Source: Cytophagales bacterium Ga0077538 (GTDB lineage Bacteria; Bacteroidota; Bacteroidia; Cytophagales; Cyclobacteriaceae). From it: a stretch of 39,283 nucleotides of DNA. The stretch covers positions 1 to 39,283 of the forward strand of contig LNEN01000259.1 of the NCBI GenBank assembly GCA_001464155.1, in the 5' to 3' direction. The number at the start of each line of letters is the position of its first letter. The first letter of the stretch is position 1. A program made the position numbers and the translations under genes. Below are positions 16,994 through 25,770 of the stretch, in pieces. The notes beneath the pieces are model-generated. The model ran no database searches. It was given only the letters and a program-made list of their open reading frames with translations, and was not told where the DNA came from.

Positions 16994-17016
16994 TTTAACT
17001 GCTAAAATTGTTCCTC

Positions 17017-17772
17017 TTGAAAAACGCATACGGTTTTATTGTTCTTCTTTTTGCCTTTGCGAGTTGTGCCTCCTACAAACAAAGCCTCATGTTTAAGACC
17101 GATGAAACAACGGCTATTAAACAGGCAGCAGAAACACTCAACAGGACGTACGCCCTCACCACCTTTGACGAAGTGAGCATTGAGGTGTTCACCAAAAATG
17201 GTGAAAGATTAATTGATCCTGATAAGGTCTTAATGATGACAGGGCCAAATGGCCAACGAATTTCACAAGAACAGGATGAAGAGGAAGAAAAATTCCTGAT
17301 CGATGAAAATGGAGTGGCCAAATTTCCCATGGTGGGTGAACAAAAGTTAGCAGGTCTTACTATTCGTGAAGCTGAGCTATTGCTGCAAAAGGAATTCTCG
17401 AAATTTTATGAGGATGTGTTTGTGAAGCTTACATGCGAAACCCGAAGAGTAGTAGTGCTGGGAGTGCCCGGTGGCCTGGTACTTCCGCTTACCTATGAAA
17501 ATGTTTCCTTAGTAGAAGTGGTGGCCATGAGTAAGGGCTTTATGACAGAAGGGAAGGCACAAGCCATCCGATTAGTAAGAGGAGACGATGTTTACCTGAT
17601 AGACTTGAGTACCGTGGAGGGTTATCGGAAGGGGAATATGACCGTTTTGCCTGGAGATATAATTTATATGGAGCCTGTGATTCGTCCCTTTGTTGAAGCC
17701 TTGGGTGATTACGGGCAACTTGTCTCTATTTCGATCTCACTTCTCACTCTGTTACTTGTGGTAGCTCAATAG
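17017..17772 (+). CDS. Wza-like polysaccharide export outer-membrane lipoprotein
   Basis: About 251 residues from a TTG at 17017, which gives a clean signal MKNAYGFIVLLFAFASC ending in a lipobox (FASC); an in-frame TTG nine bases earlier is possible. The Poly_export domain (about 45-140) opens with TFDEVSIEVFTKNGE and has DENGVAKFPMVGEQKLAGLT, and an SLBB-type block with VVVLGVPGG follows. The chain ends in a hydrophobic helix, LVSISISLLTLLLVVAQ, which could be the membrane-spanning end of the pore. Wza proteins form the octameric outer-membrane channel for exopolysaccharide and pair with Wzc, whose gene follows after 6 bases. Confidence 0.9.
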   Translation: MKNAYGFIVLLFAFASCASYKQSLMFKTDETTAIKQAAETLNRTYALTTFDEVSIEVFTKNGERLIDPDKVLMMTGPNGQRISQEQDEEEEKFLIDENGVAKFPMVGEQKLAGLTIREAELLLQKEFSKFYEDVFVKLTCETRRVVVLGVPGGLVLPLTYENVSLVEVVAMSKGFMTEGKAQAIRLVRGDDVYLIDLSTVEGYRKGNMTVLPGDIIYMEPVIRPFVEALGDYGQLVSISISLLTLLLVVAQ

Positions 17773-17778
17773 GATTTC

Positions 17779-20094
17779 ATGGAGAAGAACTTTAACGACA
17801 CGAACGAGACTATTGACTTTCCAAAGCTGAAGGCCATCTTCTTAAAGAACTCCCCCTGGGTTCTGGCGTTATTTTTAGTGTGCAACCTGGTAGCCTACTT
17901 ATTCATTCGGTATACAAAAAATGTGTACGAAGCGGAAGCGGAGATAAAGCTTGAGTTGAAAAACGAAGCGAATGAATTTGGGATCACCAAGCTTATTGAA
18001 GATCAAAACCTGAATCTGCTTTCCGGTGAGATTGAACTGATACAGTCCAATCTGTTTTTAAGTCGCGTTATTGATTCCCTCGACCTCCATGTTTCTTACT
18101 ACAGCATTGGTGATTTTCTGGATTATGAACTCTATAGAAATTCACCCTTTAGCGTAAAACCGCTTCAGGTGGGTCCTGCCCATTTCAATGTAAAGCATTC
18201 GATTAAACAGCTTAGTGATTTTCGCTATGAAATTGTATTGCATGACGAAACAGTTCTAGCAGGAGAATTTGGTAAACCATTGCGGGTAAATGGAGTAGCG
18301 CTACTTGTTGAAAAGTCGAGAAAATTCAACTTCGAATCGCAAAATAAGTACTCGTTTGTGCTTAATAATGAACAAGCTCTTCGAGCGTACTTCACCAAGG
18401 GCCTTATGGTAGAGCCAAAGAATTTCAACGCCAACACCATTCGGATTGCTTTTAAGGAATTCAATCCTGAAAAAGCAATGGATATCGTGAATAGAATCGT
18501 AAGTGTGTATCGCAATTTCAGCTACGAGCAGAAGAGTTTTGCGAATACCCAAAAAATTGGTTGGGTGAATCATGAACTCGAGCAGATTGAAAAGAAAATG
18601 GAGCAGTTCGAGAACTACTTTAAAGACTTTACACTGGAGAACAAAACGCAAAATCTTAATGAAGACCTCGCGCGTACCGTGTTGGAGATGAATGGGATCG
18701 ATACGGTTCGATACCAATTAAATCAGCAATTAAAATTAATTGCTGTTTTACAAGGCGACATCGCCTCCAAAAGTACGGAACGCCCGATCAGTATGGGTGA
18801 CAAGGATGTTTTACCTGAAGAAATCGTTATTGAATTATTGGCCTATCAGAAAAAAATAACAGAACTAAACAACCTACGTCTTTCACACAAAGAATCTACG
18901 TTTGCTTTCAAACAAGTGCAAAACGATATTGATTTTATTTCTAAGCAATTGGCATTTCAATTAAGCGAGATGGAGTCTCTGATTAAGATTCAACTCAAAC
19001 ATTTTGATCAAAGACGTAAACGCCTTGAAACGGAATTTGCGAACATGCCGGATAAGACAACCGAGTTCACGAAGAATCAACGCTTCTATAAATTGTACGA
19101 AGAATTTTACTTTACATTGATGAAGTCCCGCTCTGAGTTTGAAATAGCTCAGGCAGGAACTATCCCCGACTTTAAAATTCTTTCAGCGGCTACGTTACCC
19201 AATGTACCCATCTCGCCTAATCGTTTACTCATCACCGCTGCAGGATTCACCACTAGCTTGGTGGTTATCTTTTTCTTCATTGGCTTTTTATATCTGATTG
19301 ATGATAAGATTACAAGCGTACATGAACTGGAACGCATTGCGAAGGTCTCCATATTAGGAATCATTCCATCCTTTAGAAATTCACGTAAAGATGGCTTGCC
19401 TGTTCAAAATCAACCGCACTCAATGGTTTCGGAGTCTATTCGTACGCTGCGTACCAACCTCGACTTCTTTAATACAAATGGTGTGCAAAAAGTCATCACC
19501 ATTTCTTCAACGGTTTCTGGAGAAGGAAAATCGTTTGTTGCCAGAAATTTAGGAGCTGTAATCGCCATGTCACATAAAAAGGTGGTGTTAGTGGATTTGG
19601 ATATGCGCAAGCCAAAGGATGATCAGGCGCCACCGTTTAATAATAAGTCATTAGGCGTGAGCAGTGTTCTGATTAATAAAATTACCTGGCAGCAATGCGT
19701 GCAGGAAACTTCAGTAGAGAATTTCCATGTAATCCCTGCGGGGCCACATCCTCCTAATCCTTCTGAGTTATTGGTGAACGGTGTTTTTGAAAAATTAGTG
19801 AACGACTTAAGGGAGGCGTATGATTATGTGATTATCGACACCCCACCGGTAGGTATTGTAACGGACGGTATCATGGCGATGAAGCGTGCAGACATTTGTA
19901 TTTATCTGTTCAGAGCCAATTATTCGAAAAAAGAATTTTTACATAATCTTAAGCGCATCAATTCGCTGCATAATTTTTCGAATGTGACCGCCATCTTAAA
20001 CGCGTTGCCCCCCACCGCGCAGAGCTATGGATATGGTTATTACCATGAAGAGAAGAAATCTAAATATTTTGAATCAATATTTTTTAAAGACTAG
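17779..20094 (+). CDS. Wzc-like chain-length regulator and tyrosine autokinase
   Basis: 771 residues. An inner-membrane Wzz domain with a first membrane helix at about 30-50 (WVLALFLVCNLVAYLFI) is followed by a long periplasmic coiled-coil part (about 230-430) and a second membrane helix at about 490-512. The cytosolic BY-kinase domain has Walker A SGEGKSFVARNLG near 579, Walker A' VVLVDLDMRKP near 610, and Walker B YVIIDTPPVG near 684. The tail carries a tyrosine cluster (SYGYGYYHEEKKSKYFE), the autophosphorylation sites of this family. Phosphorylation state controls polymer length and export. The stop codon overlaps the start of the phosphatase gene by one base, so kinase and phosphatase are coupled. 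Confidence 0.94.
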   Translation: MEKNFNDTNETIDFPKLKAIFLKNSPWVLALFLVCNLVAYLFIRYTKNVYEAEAEIKLELKNEANEFGITKLIEDQNLNLLSGEIELIQSNLFLSRVIDSLDLHVSYYSIGDFLDYELYRNSPFSVKPLQVGPAHFNVKHSIKQLSDFRYEIVLHDETVLAGEFGKPLRVNGVALLVEKSRKFNFESQNKYSFVLNNEQALRAYFTKGLMVEPKNFNANTIRIAFKEFNPEKAMDIVNRIVSVYRNFSYEQKSFANTQKIGWVNHELEQIEKKMEQFENYFKDFTLENKTQNLNEDLARTVLEMNGIDTVRYQLNQQLKLIAVLQGDIASKSTERPISMGDKDVLPEEIVIELLAYQKKITELNNLRLSHKESTFAFKQVQNDIDFISKQLAFQLSEMESLIKIQLKHFDQRRKRLETEFANMPDKTTEFTKNQRFYKLYEEFYFTLMKSRSEFEIAQAGTIPDFKILSAATLPNVPISPNRLLITAAGFTTSLVVIFFFIGFLYLIDDKITSVHELERIAKVSILGIIPSFRNSRKDGLPVQNQPHSMVSESIRTLRTNLDFFNTNGVQKVITISSTVSGEGKSFVARNLGAVIAMSHKKVVLVDLDMRKPKDDQAPPFNNKSLGVSSVLINKITWQQCVQETSVENFHVIPAGPHPPNPSELLVNGVFEKLVNDLREAYDYVIIDTPPVGIVTDGIMAMKRADICIYLFRANYSKKEFLHNLKRINSLHNFSNVTAILNALPPTAQSYGYGYYHEEKKSKYFESIFFKD

Positions 20095-20822
20095 TGTTTG
20101 ACTGGCTTAAAAAAAAGGAAACCCCCAATTGGATACCACCTCTGACCACAGATGTGCACTCACACCTATTGCCAGGAATTGACGATGGGGTAAAGACCCT
20201 GGAAGAATCAGAACAGGTAATCAGGCATTTGCACGGCCTCGGATTCAATCGCTTTATCACAAGCCCGCATGTGCATGAGTTATACAGAAATACTACAGAA
20301 GTAATTCTCCAAAAAGTGCAGGATGTTCAGCAGCATCTGACAAGTCGGGGAATGAATGTTCAGATTTCTTCGATTGCCGAGTACAGTCTTGATGAATGGC
20401 TCATGCGTAAAGTGGAAGAGAAAATGAATTTCTTGACTTTTTCTCAAAACTATTTGCTGTTTGAGACTAATTTCTTTTCTGAGCCATTGGTGTTGAATGA
20501 TTTCATCTTTAAGATTACAACGTTGGGATACAAGCCTGTGCTTGCGCATCCGGAGCGCTACATGTACTTAACCAATAATAAAGATAGAATTGAGGATCTT
20601 CTTTCGCGGGGTGTGTTGTTTCAACTCAACACCTTGTCATTGGCAGGCATGTACGGTCCGGAAGTAGAAAAGCTTGCCCGTTTTCTGATCGATCAAAAGT
20701 TTGTGCACATGCTGGGCAGCGACTGTCATAACCTCCAACAGGCGCAGGTGCTGGAACGGGCACAAAAAACAAAGTATTACGCAAAGGTTATTTCATTGCC
20801 ACTCTTAAACTATTCTCTTTAA
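20094..20822 (+). CDS. CpsB/YwqE-type tyrosine-protein phosphatase (PHP fold)
   Basis: 242 residues starting at a GTG that shares its G with the Wzc stop (TAGTG). The PHP-type metal site opens with DVHSHLLPGIDDGVKTLEES (about 20-39). Further metal ligands are in FITSPHVHELY, AHPERY and LGSDCHNL, as in the manganese-dependent phosphatases CpsB and YwqE. It should dephosphorylate the tyrosine tail of the kinase encoded just upstream. The arrangement kinase then phosphatase is the common one in Bacteroidota and Firmicutes. This is a different fold from the low-molecular-weight Wzb of enterobacteria. Confidence 0.92.
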   Translation: MFDWLKKKETPNWIPPLTTDVHSHLLPGIDDGVKTLEESEQVIRHLHGLGFNRFITSPHVHELYRNTTEVILQKVQDVQQHLTSRGMNVQISSIAEYSLDEWLMRKVEEKMNFLTFSQNYLLFETNFFSEPLVLNDFIFKITTLGYKPVLAHPERYMYLTNNKDRIEDLLSRGVLFQLNTLSLAGMYGPEVEKLARFLIDQKFVHMLGSDCHNLQQAQVLERAQKTKYYAKVISLPLLNYSL

Positions 20823-21809
20823 ATGATTGCAGTAACGGGTGCCAATGGTTTGCTGGGAAGTTTTGTGGTGAGAAAACTACTTCAGGATAACATCGCCTTC
20901 GTGGCATTGAAGCGTAAGGGGAGCGACATATCACATTTACAAGATGTTAATCACCGTATTACGTGGAGGGAATCTGATGTACGCGATTATGTTAGCGTGC
21001 TGGAGGCGTTGGAGGATGTCACGGGAGTAATTCATACTGCAGCTGTTGTCTCTTATCATAAAAGAGATAAAGACTTAATTTTTGCTGTAAATGTGGAAGG
21101 CACGCAACATATAGTGGATGCTTGTTTGCAGTTGGGGATTAAGAGACTGCTTCACGTAAGTTCGGTTGCTGCCTTGGGCAAGGAGAAAGGACAATTGATT
21201 GTTGACGAAAGCAGTAAATGGATTGAAGGGGCTCGCTTCAGTAACTATGCAGCTTCAAAATACCAGGCCGAGTTGGAGGTATGGCGCGGGCAAGAAGAAG
21301 GACTGAGTACTGTGATTGTCAACCCGTCCGTAATCCTGGCTCCTACCGACTGGGGAAAAAGTAGTGCGCAACTTTTTAAGTATGCTTATCAGCAGCGACC
21401 TTTTTATACTGAGGGTTCGCTCAACGCGGTTGATGTGAGAGACGTAGCCACGTGCATTGTTGAATTGTACAAGTCTACTTTAGAAGCAGAACGCTTTGTA
21501 TTGTCGGCCGGGCAAATTTCCTACTTGAAGTTCTTTGAAAAAGCAGCCCTGAATTTTAATAAGCGTCCGCCCTTTCTTCGCGTAGCAAAACCACTGCTTC
21601 AGGTGGTGGCCATTCTGGAGGCCATTCGTAGTGTTTTAACCGGCTCCCATCCTTTGGTAACACAAGAAACAGCCCAATTGGCCGGAAAGAGTATTGTTTA
21701 CAGTAATGAAAAAGTAAAGAAGGCCTTAGGGGTTGAATTTCAATCGATTGAAAGCACCCTTCAGTGGTGTTGCGAGCATTATATGAAAAAATTAGCACTT
21801 AAAAACTAG
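20823..21809 (+). CDS. NAD(P)-dependent epimerase/dehydratase (extended SDR)
   Basis: 328 residues, starting directly after the preceding stop (TAA then ATG). The Rossmann loop is VTGANGLLGSFVVRKLL (about 4-20). Further on are DVTGVIHTAAVVSYH and the catalytic YAASK (Tyr-x3-Lys), then VNPSVILAP. It resembles dihydroflavonol-reductase-like members, many of which act on sugar nucleotides or small ketones. As the last gene of the block it may make a sugar precursor, but it could also be unrelated to polysaccharide. The substrate cannot be read from the sequence. Confidence 0.82.
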   Translation: MIAVTGANGLLGSFVVRKLLQDNIAFVALKRKGSDISHLQDVNHRITWRESDVRDYVSVLEALEDVTGVIHTAAVVSYHKRDKDLIFAVNVEGTQHIVDACLQLGIKRLLHVSSVAALGKEKGQLIVDESSKWIEGARFSNYAASKYQAELEVWRGQEEGLSTVIVNPSVILAPTDWGKSSAQLFKYAYQQRPFYTEGSLNAVDVRDVATCIVELYKSTLEAERFVLSAGQISYLKFFEKAALNFNKRPPFLRVAKPLLQVVAILEAIRSVLTGSHPLVTQETAQLAGKSIVYSNEKVKKALGVEFQSIESTLQWCCEHYMKKLALKN

Positions 21810-21865: not shown

Positions 21866-23272
21866 ATGGCAAAAGAATATCGTAAGCGGGAAGAAGAGAA
21901 CGAGCTGATCAAGACCTTTGAAGAGAACCTGCGAAAAAAGAATCACGGATTTTTCGACCTAGAGGCCTACCAAGAGATCATCGATTATTACCTTTTCAGA
22001 GGTAAGAATAATAAGGCTTTATATGCTGTAAATCTGGCCATTTCTCAATATCCTTTTTCAGTTGAATTAAAAGTGGTGAAGGCCCAAATCATGTCTAACC
22101 TGGGGGAGCATGAGGAGGCTTTAGAGATATTAGGTGAAGTTGAAAATCTGCAACCCAATGATGCAGAAGTATTATTGACCAAAGGGTCTATTCTTGCTTT
22201 GCAAAATAAACATGCGGAGGCCATCGAGTGCTATGAAAGAGCGCTGGCGGTGGCAGAAGATAAAGACGAAGTTTATTATAACATTGGGCTTGCCTATCAG
22301 CAAATGGAACAGTATCAATTGGCGATTGATGCCTACAAGCAAGCCATTGAATTGAATTTGAATCACGAAGGAGCACTCTACGAACTTGCATTCTGTCTGG
22401 ATGTAACCGACCAGTTGGAGGGAAGTGTTGAGTATTATAAGAAATTTATTGACGAAGATCCTTACTCGGCAGCAGCCTGGTATAACCTCGGAATTGTTTA
22501 TAATAAACTTGAAAAATTTGAGGAAGCGTTGATGGCCTATGATTATGCCATTACGATTGATGAAACCTTTGCTTCGGCACACTTTAATGTAGGAAACACC
22601 TACATGAATTTGGGAGAGTATACCAAGGCACTGGATTCATTCAAGCGCACGGTTGAATTGGAGGGGCCAAGTGCTGAAGTATATTGTTGCATTGGGGCTG
22701 CGTATGAAAGCTTGGAACAGTTTGAGTTAGGATTGAAATATTATCAAAAATCAACCAAGCTGGACAATCTATACGATGAAGCATGGTTTGGATGTGGAGC
22801 CTGTTTGGAGAAAATGGAGAAATGGAGTGAGGCTAACCATCACTACACAAAGGCATTAAAGCTACATACCGAAAACTCTGAATACTGGAAGGCAGTAGCG
22901 CATTCTGATTTCAAGATTGGCCACATCCCACAAAGCCTGGAGTCATATGAAGAAGCGGCCAAACTCGATCCAACCGATAAAGAGATTTGGTTGAACTGGT
23001 CCTTTATATACTATGATCAGGGTGAGTATGATAAAGCTATCGAAACGTTATTGGATGGCTTTACGGATATTCCGGATGATGCAGAAATGTTTTACCGCAT
23101 GACCGTTTACCTGATTGCAGGTGGTAAATTTAAAGAAGCCTTTAACTATTTAGAAAATGCATTAATTTTGGACTTTGATGGTCATACAACCCTCTTTGAG
23201 TTCTTTCCACAATTGGAAACACAGAAAGCGCTCTATAAGATCATCGAACAATTTAGAAAAGAAAACAGCTAG
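21866..23272 (+). CDS. TPR-repeat protein
   Basis: 468 residues almost wholly built of tetratricopeptide repeats, about eleven to twelve from residue 40 to the end. Examples are AEAIECYERALAVAEDKDEVYYN, split by periods of about 34, and KFEEALMAYDYAITID. There is no signal peptide or membrane helix, so it is cytosolic, probably a scaffold. The start MAKEYRKREEENELIKTF is highly charged. A possible promoter is TAACTTTTG at 21843-21851, one base longer than consensus. The stop is followed at once by the ATG of the sulfolactate-synthase-like gene, so the two are coupled. The partner is unknown. Confidence 0.85.
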   Translation: MAKEYRKREEENELIKTFEENLRKKNHGFFDLEAYQEIIDYYLFRGKNNKALYAVNLAISQYPFSVELKVVKAQIMSNLGEHEEALEILGEVENLQPNDAEVLLTKGSILALQNKHAEAIECYERALAVAEDKDEVYYNIGLAYQQMEQYQLAIDAYKQAIELNLNHEGALYELAFCLDVTDQLEGSVEYYKKFIDEDPYSAAAWYNLGIVYNKLEKFEEALMAYDYAITIDETFASAHFNVGNTYMNLGEYTKALDSFKRTVELEGPSAEVYCCIGAAYESLEQFELGLKYYQKSTKLDNLYDEAWFGCGACLEKMEKWSEANHHYTKALKLHTENSEYWKAVAHSDFKIGHIPQSLESYEEAAKLDPTDKEIWLNWSFIYYDQGEYDKAIETLLDGFTDIPDDAEMFYRMTVYLIAGGKFKEAFNYLENALILDFDGHTTLFEFFPQLETQKALYKIIEQFRKENS

Positions 23273-24076
23273 ATGAATTACGAGATTAAGAACCTGCCTG
23301 AGCGTACCCGTAAGCCCAGACAATACGGTTTTACCATGGCCATGGATAAGGGCCTTAGCGTTCGGGAAGCAGAAGATTTTGTGTCTACCTGTGCCGACCA
23401 TGTTGACATTGTGAAATTAGGCTGGGCCACTTCTTTCGTCACGCCCAATCTGAAGGATAAACTTAAAGTATTCAAAGATGCAGGTCTTCCGGTTTATTTT
23501 GGAGGAACTCTTTTCGAAGCCTTTATCATACGCGACCAATTTGACGACTACCGCAGGGTACTCGACAAATTTGACATGCAGTTTGCAGAAGTGTCTGATG
23601 GTTCAATTGATCTGGACCACGACAAGAAATGCGATTACATTGCCAAGTTATCAGAGCAAGTAACCGTGCTTTCGGAAGTGGGGTCTAAGGATGCAGATAA
23701 AATCATTCCTCCGTACAAGTGGATTGAATTGATGCAGAAAGAGCTGGATGCAGGTGCCTGGAAAGTGATCGGTGAAGCACGCGAAGGTGGAAATGTTGGT
23801 TTGTTCCGTTCTACCGGAGAGGTGCGCTCGGGACTTGTTCAGGAAATTTTAACGAAGATTCCATTCGAAAAAATTATTTGGGAAGCTCCACAGAAAGCAC
23901 AACAAGTGTGGTTTATTAAGCTATTAGGTACTAATGTAAATCTAGGCAACATTGCGCCTAACGAAGTAATACCGTTGGAGACCATACGTCTTGGCTTGCG
24001 AGGAGATACTTTCTTACATTTTCTGGGTATCGAGAGAAAGAAAGACAATTCAACACCACCTTTCGAGGTTGAATAA
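23273..24076 (+). CDS. Phosphosulfolactate synthase-like protein (ComA family)
   Basis: 267 residues. ComA joins phosphoenolpyruvate and sulfite into (R)-phosphosulfolactate, known from archaeal coenzyme M synthesis. Family features seen are FTMAMDKGL (about 22-30), HVDIVKLGWATSF, PVYFGGTLFEAF, AEVSDGSIDL, EVGSKD and VIGEAREGGNVGLF, all along a TIM-barrel-like order. Bacteroidota do not make coenzyme M, so the product is probably used elsewhere; sulfolactate or cysteate for sulfonolipids (capnine type) is an inference from the taxonomy. It sits directly after the TPR gene and 7 bases before the DUF368 gene. A different aldol-type substrate cannot be excluded. Confidence 0.85.
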   Translation: MNYEIKNLPERTRKPRQYGFTMAMDKGLSVREAEDFVSTCADHVDIVKLGWATSFVTPNLKDKLKVFKDAGLPVYFGGTLFEAFIIRDQFDDYRRVLDKFDMQFAEVSDGSIDLDHDKKCDYIAKLSEQVTVLSEVGSKDADKIIPPYKWIELMQKELDAGAWKVIGEAREGGNVGLFRSTGEVRSGLVQEILTKIPFEKIIWEAPQKAQQVWFIKLLGTNVNLGNIAPNEVIPLETIRLGLRGDTFLHFLGIERKKDNSTPPFEVE

Positions 24077-24083
24077 AATTACG

Positions 24084-25022
24084 TTGAAAAAACCTGCTGA
24101 TTATATTTTATTGTATCTCAAGGGTATTGCCATGGGCACAGCCGATGTAATTCCTGGCGTATCAGGAGGTACCGTTGCCTTTATTAGTGGTATCTATGAT
24201 GAGCTTCTGCACTCCATTAAAGCGATTGATGGAGAAGCATTTCGTTTACTCTTTAAGTTTAAGCTCAAGGACTTTTGGGTAAAAATTAATGGCAATTTCC
24301 TGGCTACTCTTTTTGCAGGTATTGTAACGAGTTTGCTGTCGTTGGCAAAGCTTATGACCTATTTGCTAACGCATCATCCGATTCTGATCTGGTCATTTTT
24401 TTTCGGACTTATCTTAGTAGCAGCACCACTTGTATTGCGAGAGATTAAGCATTGGTCTGTAAATGCTATTATTAGTTTTGTGTTGGGAATTGTTGTTGCC
24501 TACTACATCACCGTTGTGACGCCAACGGAAAGCCCGAACAATTTACTTTTCATCTTCTTTAGTGGGGCACTTGCTATTTGTGCCATGATCCTCCCTGGTA
24601 TTTCAGGTGCTTTTATTCTACTTCTCATCGGTAAGTATCAATACATGATTACTGCGTTGATAGAATTTAACATTCCAATCGTATTGGTATTTATGGCAGG
24701 ATGTGCGGTAGGTATTCTTTCTTTCTCGCGCTTATTATCATGGGTGTTGGATCATTACCACAGCGTGGCCGTGGCATTGCTGGCGGGCTTCATGCTCGGT
24801 TCGCTGAATAAGGTTTGGCCCTGGAGAGAAGTAAAAGAGTATGCTACGAATAGCAAAGGTGAACAAATATCCGTTTTTGATCAGAGCATCTGGCCGGGTA
24901 ATTATTTTGATGTAACAGGTAAGGACCCTTTACTCCTTCAGGCAATCTTAATGATGGCCCTGGGTGTGTTTATTGTGATTCTCATTGAGCGTATTGCCAC
25001 GCGTTTAAAACTAAAGCATTAA
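24084..25022 (+). CDS. DUF368 membrane protein, probable undecaprenyl-phosphate translocase (PopT-like)
   Basis: About 312 residues from a TTG at 24084 (MKKPADYILLYLKGIAMGTADVIPG). The frame is open further upstream, but this would overlap the preceding gene by about 30 codons, and the family usually starts here. The signature KGIAMGTADVIPGVSGGT and the paired ICAMILPGISGAFILLLIGKY are the two internally related motifs of DUF368. About eight to nine membrane helices are visible. DUF368 proteins have been shown in other bacteria to return undecaprenyl phosphate to the cytosolic face, so it can serve in peptidoglycan and polysaccharide assembly. The gene lies 7 bases after the ComA-like gene and 1 base before aroE. 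Confidence 0.88.
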   Translation: MKKPADYILLYLKGIAMGTADVIPGVSGGTVAFISGIYDELLHSIKAIDGEAFRLLFKFKLKDFWVKINGNFLATLFAGIVTSLLSLAKLMTYLLTHHPILIWSFFFGLILVAAPLVLREIKHWSVNAIISFVLGIVVAYYITVVTPTESPNNLLFIFFSGALAICAMILPGISGAFILLLIGKYQYMITALIEFNIPIVLVFMAGCAVGILSFSRLLSWVLDHYHSVAVALLAGFMLGSLNKVWPWREVKEYATNSKGEQISVFDQSIWPGNYFDVTGKDPLLLQAILMMALGVFIVILIERIATRLKLKH

Positions 25023-25023
25023 C

Positions 25024-25770
25024 ATGGAAAAAATATTCGGCCTGATTGGTCAAACCGTTAGTCATTCATTTTCAAAAGCTTATTTCGATGAGAAATTTTT
25101 CAGAGATGGATTGAGAGATCACCGCTATGAATTATTTCCGTTAGGCTCCATTACAGAAGTTGAGAATCTAATCAACAACACAAAAGGTTTAACAGGATTG
25201 AACGTTACGCTTCCTTACAAAGAAAAAGTAATTCAGTACCTGGATGTGATTGATGCAGCCGCTAAAGAAATTGGTGCCGTTAATGTTATCAAAATCGAAG
25301 AAGGGAAACTAAAGGGTTACAACACAGATTCAGCCGCCTTCTACGAAACACTGGAGCGTTGGCTTCCAAAGGGCACTGTTTTTAAAGGTTTGGTTTTAGG
25401 TTCAGGTGGCTCTTCTAAAGCAGTGCAACAGGCTTTGCGCAAACTAAACATTGATGCAAAAGTAGTGTCGCGCGAAGAAGGAAAGTCGGATCTAACATAC
25501 GAGCAGTTAAATAAGGACAATAAGAAATTATTGAGTGAGTGTAATCTCATTATCAACACCACGCCATTGGGCATGCACCCCAATACTGAAACGATGGCTC
25601 CCATTAGCATGGATAATATTGGTAAGCAGCATTTTGTATATGATCTTATCTACAATCCTGCCCGCACCTTATTTTTACAGAGAGCAGAAATGCACGGAGC
25701 TACTATAAAAAATGGTTTGGAGATGCTCCACGTTCAGGCTGAAAAATCCTGGGAAATCTGGAACAGTTAG
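25024..25770 (+). CDS. aroE: Shikimate 5-dehydrogenase
   Basis: 248 residues. The enzyme reduces 3-dehydroshikimate with NADPH in aromatic amino-acid synthesis. The shikimate-binding SHSFSKAYFDEKF (about 14-26), the catalytic Lys in NVTLPYKEKV (about 60-69), and YNTDSAAF (catalytic-pair Asp) are present. The NADP loop is LGSGGSSKAVQQAL (about 123-136), then NTTPLGMHP and the C-terminal GLEMLHVQAEKSWEIW. It is slightly shorter than the E. coli enzyme but full length for Bacteroidota. It is the last gene in the tight TPR-ComA-DUF368-aroE run; 81 bases separate it from uvrB. Confidence 0.95.
   Translation: MEKIFGLIGQTVSHSFSKAYFDEKFFRDGLRDHRYELFPLGSITEVENLINNTKGLTGLNVTLPYKEKVIQYLDVIDAAAKEIGAVNVIKIEEGKLKGYNTDSAAFYETLERWLPKGTVFKGLVLGSGGSSKAVQQALRKLNIDAKVVSREEGKSDLTYEQLNKDNKKLLSECNLIINTTPLGMHPNTETMAPISMDNIGKQHFVYDLIYNPARTLFLQRAEMHGATIKNGLEMLHVQAEKSWEIWNS

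Follow-up and report, generated by a model that had tools for sequence, protein, structure and literature searches.

What does a gene for phosphosulfolactate synthase, an enzyme known from archaeal coenzyme M synthesis, do in a bacterium of the phylum Bacteroidota, and how is it related to the genes with which it is tightly packed? We studied this question on contig LNEN01000259.1 of Cytophagales bacterium Ga0077538 (assembly GCA_001464155.1, family Cyclobacteriaceae), a stretch of 39,283 nucleotides that was analyzed as a whole and is referred to as the window; the draft genome to which it belongs (as contig C259) amounts to 3.96 Mb in 323 contigs and is 93% complete. The central gene, comA, occupies positions 23273..24076 on the plus strand. 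The reading that we prefer, to which we assign a probability of roughly two in three, is that ComA together with ComB supplies cysteate for sulfonolipids in Cytophagales and some other Bacteroidota, and that an unrelated enzyme, CapA, replaced this source elsewhere. This reading is built on gene presence, absence and order and on conserved residues, from which we infer the reactions and the direction of the replacement. Genomes, genera, families, contigs and loci are given by our own numbers (G, g, f, C and L) where they have to be told apart.

By its matches, the window protein belongs to the ComA/phosphosulfolactate synthase family and is a predicted synthase. It scored 304.3 bits against PF02679 (E 7.6e-91; gathering score 25.2) and matched the structures 1u83 (E 8.4e-58), which is its closest solved relative, and 1qwg (E 2.7e-50), with identities of 40% and 44%, respectively. 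Residues invariant in 14 Bacteroidota ComA proteins are kept, where they align, at 47 of 60 positions in 1qwg and 56 of 64 positions in 1u83, and 22 of the invariant polar residues are kept in both. The cut-off of the archaeal equivalog TIGR03849 was failed (249.1 vs. 280 bits); therefore, we file the protein in the ComA family and not as the archaeal equivalog. Assignment to the type II paralogues of PF02679 was rejected, the sole aligned example (L177 9271-10092) having 22% identity. The genome with this divergent type II protein encodes a type I protein as well, and several genomes of families f32, f42 and f54 have two PF02679 matches of such lengths, of which only L177 was aligned. Type II proteins are presumably HSA32-like, i.e., kin of plant HSA32.

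The preliminary description of this locus suggested that sulfolactate could feed sulfonolipid synthesis, and proposed the presence of cysteate or capnine synthesis genes as a check. A cysteate fatty acyltransferase (CFAT) and ComB, a predicted 2-phosphosulfolactate phosphatase, are both encoded in the genome, which refutes the possibility that it has no sulfonolipid genes; no CapA was found. The CFAT protein (contig C209) scored 594 bits against 7u7h (SulA of Alistipes) and 592 bits against 28eh, compared to only 223 bits against serine palmitoyltransferase (Spt). It carries Lys281 (YAKSLPMP), the residue that replaces the Spt alanine and is described by Radka et al. (PMC9304779) as diagnostic of CFAT/SulA. 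Both Lys281 and the pyridoxal phosphate lysine are kept in all 76 sampled CFATs (55 from the phylum draw described below and 21 from relatives). ComB is a single-copy protein (contig C35) with 268.9 bits for PF04029 (gathering score 26.4), and it falls below the NCBIfam equivalog cut-offs (best 201.8 vs. 330 bits; TIGR00298, 121.8 vs. 175.05 bits). No match to CapA (NF053679) was detected in the genome at E 1e-145, and none to archaeal cysteate synthase (TIGR03844) at E 1e-60, the Methanosarcina acetivorans control being positive.

Several further genes of this genome touch on the route. An aspartate-aminotransferase-like protein (L060) scored 403.8 bits, below the cut-off of 550. An aminotransferase encoded on the same contig as comB (L088, C35) was rejected as a member of the route: it adjoins prephenate dehydrogenase (351.1 bits vs. 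a cut-off of 295) and lies on the strand opposite to comB. On the same contig comB is near gcvT, with a TPR gene between them (L088 279-2696), and the two are also close in an f42 genome (L176 13862-15724), as judged from open reading frames (ORFs) that were not scanned. In addition to CFAT, the genome encodes a serine palmitoyltransferase (L064, truncated at the end of its contig), so that this bacterium may make both sphingolipids and sulfonolipids.

We searched a draw of 395 Bacteroidota genomes, including the one studied here, for ComA, CFAT, CapA and ComB; a second set comprised 59 relatives (the genome itself and members of its genus, family and order). CFAT was called at E 1e-100 in the draw and at E 1e-75 in the follow-up of ComA genomes that lacked it. 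CapA was called at E 1e-145, the curated cut-off of NF053679 being 600 bits. This yielded 52 genomes, 40 of them above the curated cut-off; three (G065, G122 and G214) were excluded as having proteins of cystathionine beta-synthase (CBS) length (454-476 aa, 484-492 bits), which left 49, and inspection of the CFAT locus of G435 revealed an adjoining CapA homologue (50% identity), which brought the count to 50. Nine CapA rows with 508-552 bits, i.e., below the curated cut-off, were retained because each of the nine adjoins CFAT. Among the PF02679 matches, G077 (19 bits) was removed, G108, G116 and G383 were treated as type II on the sole basis of the length of their unaligned matches, and G255 (126.8 bits) was counted as type I ComA, though divergent.

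CFAT was found in 139 of the 395 genomes: 81 had ComA only, 50 had CapA only, 8 had neither, and in none were both found. Counted by genera, the 64 with CFAT include 41 with ComA, 19 with CapA, none with both, and five with a genome that has neither; one of these five, g75, has ComA genomes too. CapA was not found outside CFAT genomes in this draw. ComB accompanied ComA and CFAT in 80 of 81 genomes, compared to one of the 50 CapA genomes (G435). The CapA type comprises families f24 and f25, which we take to be Flavobacteriales, and part of f26, and the ComA type comprises Cytophagales and several other Bacteroidota. No CapA was detected near CFAT at E 1e-5 in 23 loci of 22 ComA genomes or in the eight genomes with neither gene. 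A search of 80 genomes for archaeal cysteate synthase at E 1e-60 was likewise negative; it covered 53 of the 81 genomes with ComA and CFAT, 8 relatives, 9 genomes that then counted as having neither, including G435, 7 of the 14 with ComA and no CFAT, and 3 with CapA. The proposal that sulfolactate feeds sulfonolipid synthesis fits these data well: CFAT and ComB are present in the genome studied here, no CapA was found in it, and ComA and CapA were never found together among the CFAT genomes. As to CFAT itself, in G309, G274 and G235 (L162, L163 and L164) it lies inside open frames of 1158, 1113 and 1171 aa, suggesting that it is part of fusion proteins there; G014 has two copies (L157 and L165).

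Losses of ComA are informative as well. ComA is present in 57 of the 59 genomes of the relatives set, and CFAT was found in 22 of 22 ComA-positive relatives tested within the order (of 56 besides the genome itself). The two genomes without ComA, G049 (1.6 Mb) and G057 (1.1 Mb), had no CFAT at E 1e-75; G043, also of 1.6 Mb, nevertheless has ComA. We also compared the aroE neighbourhoods of 32 genomes that lack ComA. In 10 of them a TPR gene still occupies its position although comA is missing. It stands just before DUF368 or aroE in 8 of the 12 CapA genomes of f25, the other four having DUF368 before aroE, and just before aroE in G060 and G414. DUF368-aroE without ComA was seen in G095, G234 and G049, and the remaining 15 genomes, including the four of f24, showed nothing but aroE at E 1e-5. 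In the 10 TPR loci, the gap at the ComA slot is -4 to 70 bases, measured up to the earliest start that the following gene could have, and no remnant of ComA was detected in it at E 1. The TPR proteins of G060 and G414 are 70% and 61% identical to the one beside ComA in G179, and neither genome has CFAT at E 1e-75. The f25 TPR match has an identity of only 26-31%, so that orthology there rests partly on position. Since loci without ComA often retain TPR-DUF368-aroE, the ComA slot being a clean gap, ComA tracks the sulfonolipid enzyme CFAT and not its gene neighbours; the run is a conserved neighbourhood, of which ComA is the replaceable part.

It should be noted that a number of observations weigh against ComA-ComB as the cysteate source. 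Genome counts overstate the statistics, because the swap between ComA and CapA amounts to few events on the CFAT tree (76 sequences, i.e., 55 of the 139 from the draw and 21 from relatives, built by a quick method and with some long branches). The three labels (ComA, CapA and neither) require 6 changes on this tree, and there are 3 independent pairs, too few to reach significance; accordingly, we rejected the counting of genomes as independent cases. ComB is not specific by itself, as 116 of the 297 genomes that have no PF02679 match above the cut-off encode it too, and G355 has ComA and CFAT without ComB. ComA classed as type I occurs in 14 genomes (3 of f32, 6 of f54, 4 of f70 and a divergent one of f49) in which no CFAT was found even at E 1e-75; ComB is present in all 14. 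ComA does not lie beside CFAT in any of the loci examined. The CapA threshold used across the phylum missed the copy in G435; other genomes may have weaker CapA proteins away from CFAT. Finally, there are the eight CFAT genomes with neither gene (G122, G214, G218, G234, G309, G316, G418 and G434). ComB is kept in G309 and in the three f22 genomes G316, G418 and G434; the f22 rows nest among ComA rows on the CFAT tree, and three of the eight genomes share a genus for which the draw contains two further CFAT genomes, both with ComA.

The same tree bears on the replacement. A single group with a support of 90, which is not starred, contains 22 CapA rows and four rows with neither gene, and includes the CFAT of G435. 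Because the CapA rows fall in one group, the swap from ComA to CapA may have been a single ancient event. G435 itself has no ComA and has CapA directly beside CFAT (L194 7957-10401), and its family, f42, is otherwise of the ComA type. Its CFAT is 62% identical to that of the genome studied here, compared to 47-54% in the other f42 genomes, which suggests that CapA and CFAT of G435 were acquired by horizontal transfer.

Under the preferred reading, ComA would combine phosphoenolpyruvate and sulfite into phosphosulfolactate, and ComB would take off the phosphate to give sulfolactate. A dehydrogenase would convert sulfolactate to sulfopyruvate, and an aspartate-type aminotransferase would convert sulfopyruvate to L-cysteate, both being steps that we infer. 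CFAT would join cysteate with an acyl group to form 3-ketocapnine, the first committed sulfonolipid intermediate. The TPR, DUF368 and aroE products need not take part. In f24, f25 and part of f26, where ComA and ComB are absent, phosphoserine-dependent CapA would have taken over. We lean, by a little more than an even chance, toward a broader scenario, in which ComA-ComB is the ancestral Bacteroidota source of cysteate for sulfonolipids and is still in use in Cytophagales and in several families outside the class, some of which would employ it for sulfonolipids made without CFAT, and in which CapA came later, arising or spreading with CFAT and making ComA and ComB dispensable. The sulfonolipid of Salinibacter ruber keeps its carboxyl group and would need cysteate, not CFAT; G203 (f54), which we take to be S. 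ruber DSM 13855, is a lead in this respect and not a test.

The strongest competing explanation, which we consider unlikely, is that the sulfolactate made by ComA has a different use, for instance as an osmolyte, a stress metabolite or a product to be excreted, and that the link of ComA to CFAT reflects only shared ancestry. It is favoured by the 14 genomes that have ComA but lack CFAT, by the small number of independent events on the tree and by Bacillus subtilis, which served as a search control and has ComA, and for which we know of no sulfonolipids. However, this explanation has to account for the joint absence of ComA and CFAT in G060 and G414 and in G049 and G057, with some or all of the cluster neighbours remaining in G060, G414 and G049, for the presence of CapA in place of ComA in G435, and for the failure to find ComA and CapA together in any genome.

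Considerably less probable is that cysteate is made by L084, a cystathionine beta-synthase-like protein, and that ComA is irrelevant. The genome encodes six PF00291 proteins, two of which were scanned with NCBIfam, and among those scanned L084 is nearest to CapA. Its 459 bits on the CapA model (cut-off 600) and a score narrowly under the cystathionine beta-synthase cut-off (494.8 vs. 510.25 bits) speak for such a role, whereas the match of its C-terminal stretch to the CBS-domain model speaks against it. In addition, a protein of this kind and of CBS length (462 aa, 486.8 bits) is encoded in G095, which has a separate CapA next to CFAT; because one genome has one of each, we regard the two as distinct kinds of protein. 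A role of L084 would also leave the absence of ComA from CapA genomes unexplained.

Conservation of the gene order, with which the preliminary description was also concerned, was assessed in the best 80 of at least 578 confirmed loci, picked by similarity and mostly with Cytophagales titles; the closest are from Ohtaekwangia, Chryseolinea, Pseudochryseolinea and metagenome-assembled genomes of Cyclobacteriaceae. TPR-ComA-DUF368-aroE is complete in 58 of these 80 loci, so that the order is kept across Cytophagales and is not unique to this strain. TPR adjoins comA in 75 of the 80. Other arrangements are TPR-ComA-aroE (7 loci), TPR-ComA alone (6), TPR-ComA-DUF368 (2) and ComA-aroE (4), and 3 loci run into contig ends. 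The full order is seen in each of the 10 loci with Algoriphagus in their titles, which do not include A. machipongonensis. Other families of the class have TPR-ComA-aroE too (L035, L036, L040 and L041). Because the order recurs in relatives, the run is not due to chance. Among loci from the same taxonomic order, ComA is more conserved than its neighbours (72-92% identity vs. 34-74% for TPR). The least probable of the explanations, that the four genes form one functional envelope-lipid operon as initially surmised, draws on the tight spacing and conserved order; against it stand the persistence of TPR-DUF368-aroE, wholly or partly, without ComA in the 10 TPR loci, CapA genomes included, and the different genes that surround ComA in those loci from outside the class that we read.

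In the window, the ORFs and the Pfam and NCBIfam scans bear out the run of four genes described initially, all on the plus strand. The TPR-repeat protein, identified by the Pfam scan, is encoded at 21866..23272, directly upstream of comA with a gap of 0 bases. The DUF368/polyprenyl-phosphate translocase gene (24084..25022; PF04018, E 2.4e-102) follows comA after 7 bases, assuming a TTG start at 24084, the mechanical ORF opening upstream at 23991; its product passes the polyprenyl-phosphate transporter model NF052564 (408.3 bits vs. a cut-off of 400). One base further, at 25024..25770, is the conserved downstream neighbour, a shikimate dehydrogenase that we call AroE-like because it is under the TIGR00507 cut-off (180.9 vs. 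200.2 bits); its sole Pfam match is the N-terminal shikimate domain. The co-directional block extends further on both sides. The gene for an extended short-chain dehydrogenase/reductase (SDR) of 328 aa (20823..21809, plus strand, PF01370) ends 56 bases before the TPR gene, and uvrB begins 81 bases past aroE on the same strand. Of the best 80 named loci, 60 have an SDR immediately before the TPR/comA pair; 14 lack it, and 6 leave no room for it. The SDR of the window is a candidate reductase; among solved structures it is closest to an oxidoreductase and to cinnamoyl-CoA or dihydroflavonol reductases. The known 3-ketosphinganine reductases with which it was compared, and to which it may or may not correspond, are BT_0972 (~31 kDa) and the NDUFA9-like CerR. 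Before the run, positions 17008-20822 of the same strand contain a gene for a 254-aa lipoprotein-like protein, a Wzc-like tyrosine kinase and a CpsB/CapC gene. A promoter scan of the window (11 found vs. 11.0 expected in shuffles) and a scan for terminator-like elements (8 vs. 4.4) were not used.

The literature provides a context for this distribution. CapA is reported to convert phosphoserine to cysteate (PMC10191378, citing Liu 2022), and the same source states that Alistipes and Odoribacter use an archaeal-type cysteate synthase, a third route; in the main text of the article cited there, PMC9304779, the words "cysteate synthase" do not occur. A Cys-CFAT-KCR pathway has been described, with six CFATs tested, one of them from Algoriphagus machipongonensis (PMC11211663), and capABC has been reported in Labilibaculum (PMC12927429). 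Sulfonolipids are documented in Algoriphagus (RIF-1; PMC3463246) and in Salinibacter ruber (PMC2596770), and the listed makers are Algoriphagus, Flexibacter, Sporocytophaga and Salinibacter (PMC5591296). In the accessible parts of the open-licence literature, no link between sulfonolipids and sulfolactate was found beyond the context of sulfoquinovose; no pairing of capnine with sulfopyruvate was found in that literature, and phosphosulfolactate synthase with Bacteroidetes gave only unrelated matches, as judged by title and opening. As far as we searched, the pathway assignment is new, each kind of enzyme being known.

Taken together, the genomic evidence gives good support to comA as a candidate for the cysteate supply that sulfonolipid synthesis is missing in Cytophagales and other groups. 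If ComA-ComB indeed has this role, a function would be assigned to an archaeal-type gene that 57 of the 59 genomes of the relatives set carry, and the missing cysteate source would be filled for CFAT bacteria without CapA. Gene content would then predict how sulfonolipid makers obtain their sulfonate, and users of the route would include the genus Algoriphagus, in which the sulfonolipid of one species triggers choanoflagellate rosettes. Methanogens have two routes to sulfopyruvate; two convergent routes to one lipid precursor within one phylum would mirror them.

The closest parallels are with four known systems. The coenzyme M pathway of methanogens (ComA, ComB and ComC; 1qwg is MjComA) shares the family of its first enzyme with the window protein, and the ComB family is represented in the genome; it differs in that the proposed product here is cysteate for a lipid, and in the failed archaeal equivalog cut-off. 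Sulfolactate synthesis of B. subtilis, where sulfolactate is a spore component, provides the closest solved relative of window ComA, 1u83, which is presumably YitA; we know of no link of that synthesis to CFAT. Archaeal cysteate synthase (TIGR03844) represents another route to cysteate, with no match among the 80 genomes tested. The CapA-CapB-CapC pathway of capnine synthesis uses the same kind of condensing enzyme (CFAT/CapB/SulA), but derives its cysteate from phosphoserine by means of CapA, whereas in the genome studied here, with no CapA found, cysteate would come from sulfolactate made by ComA and ComB.

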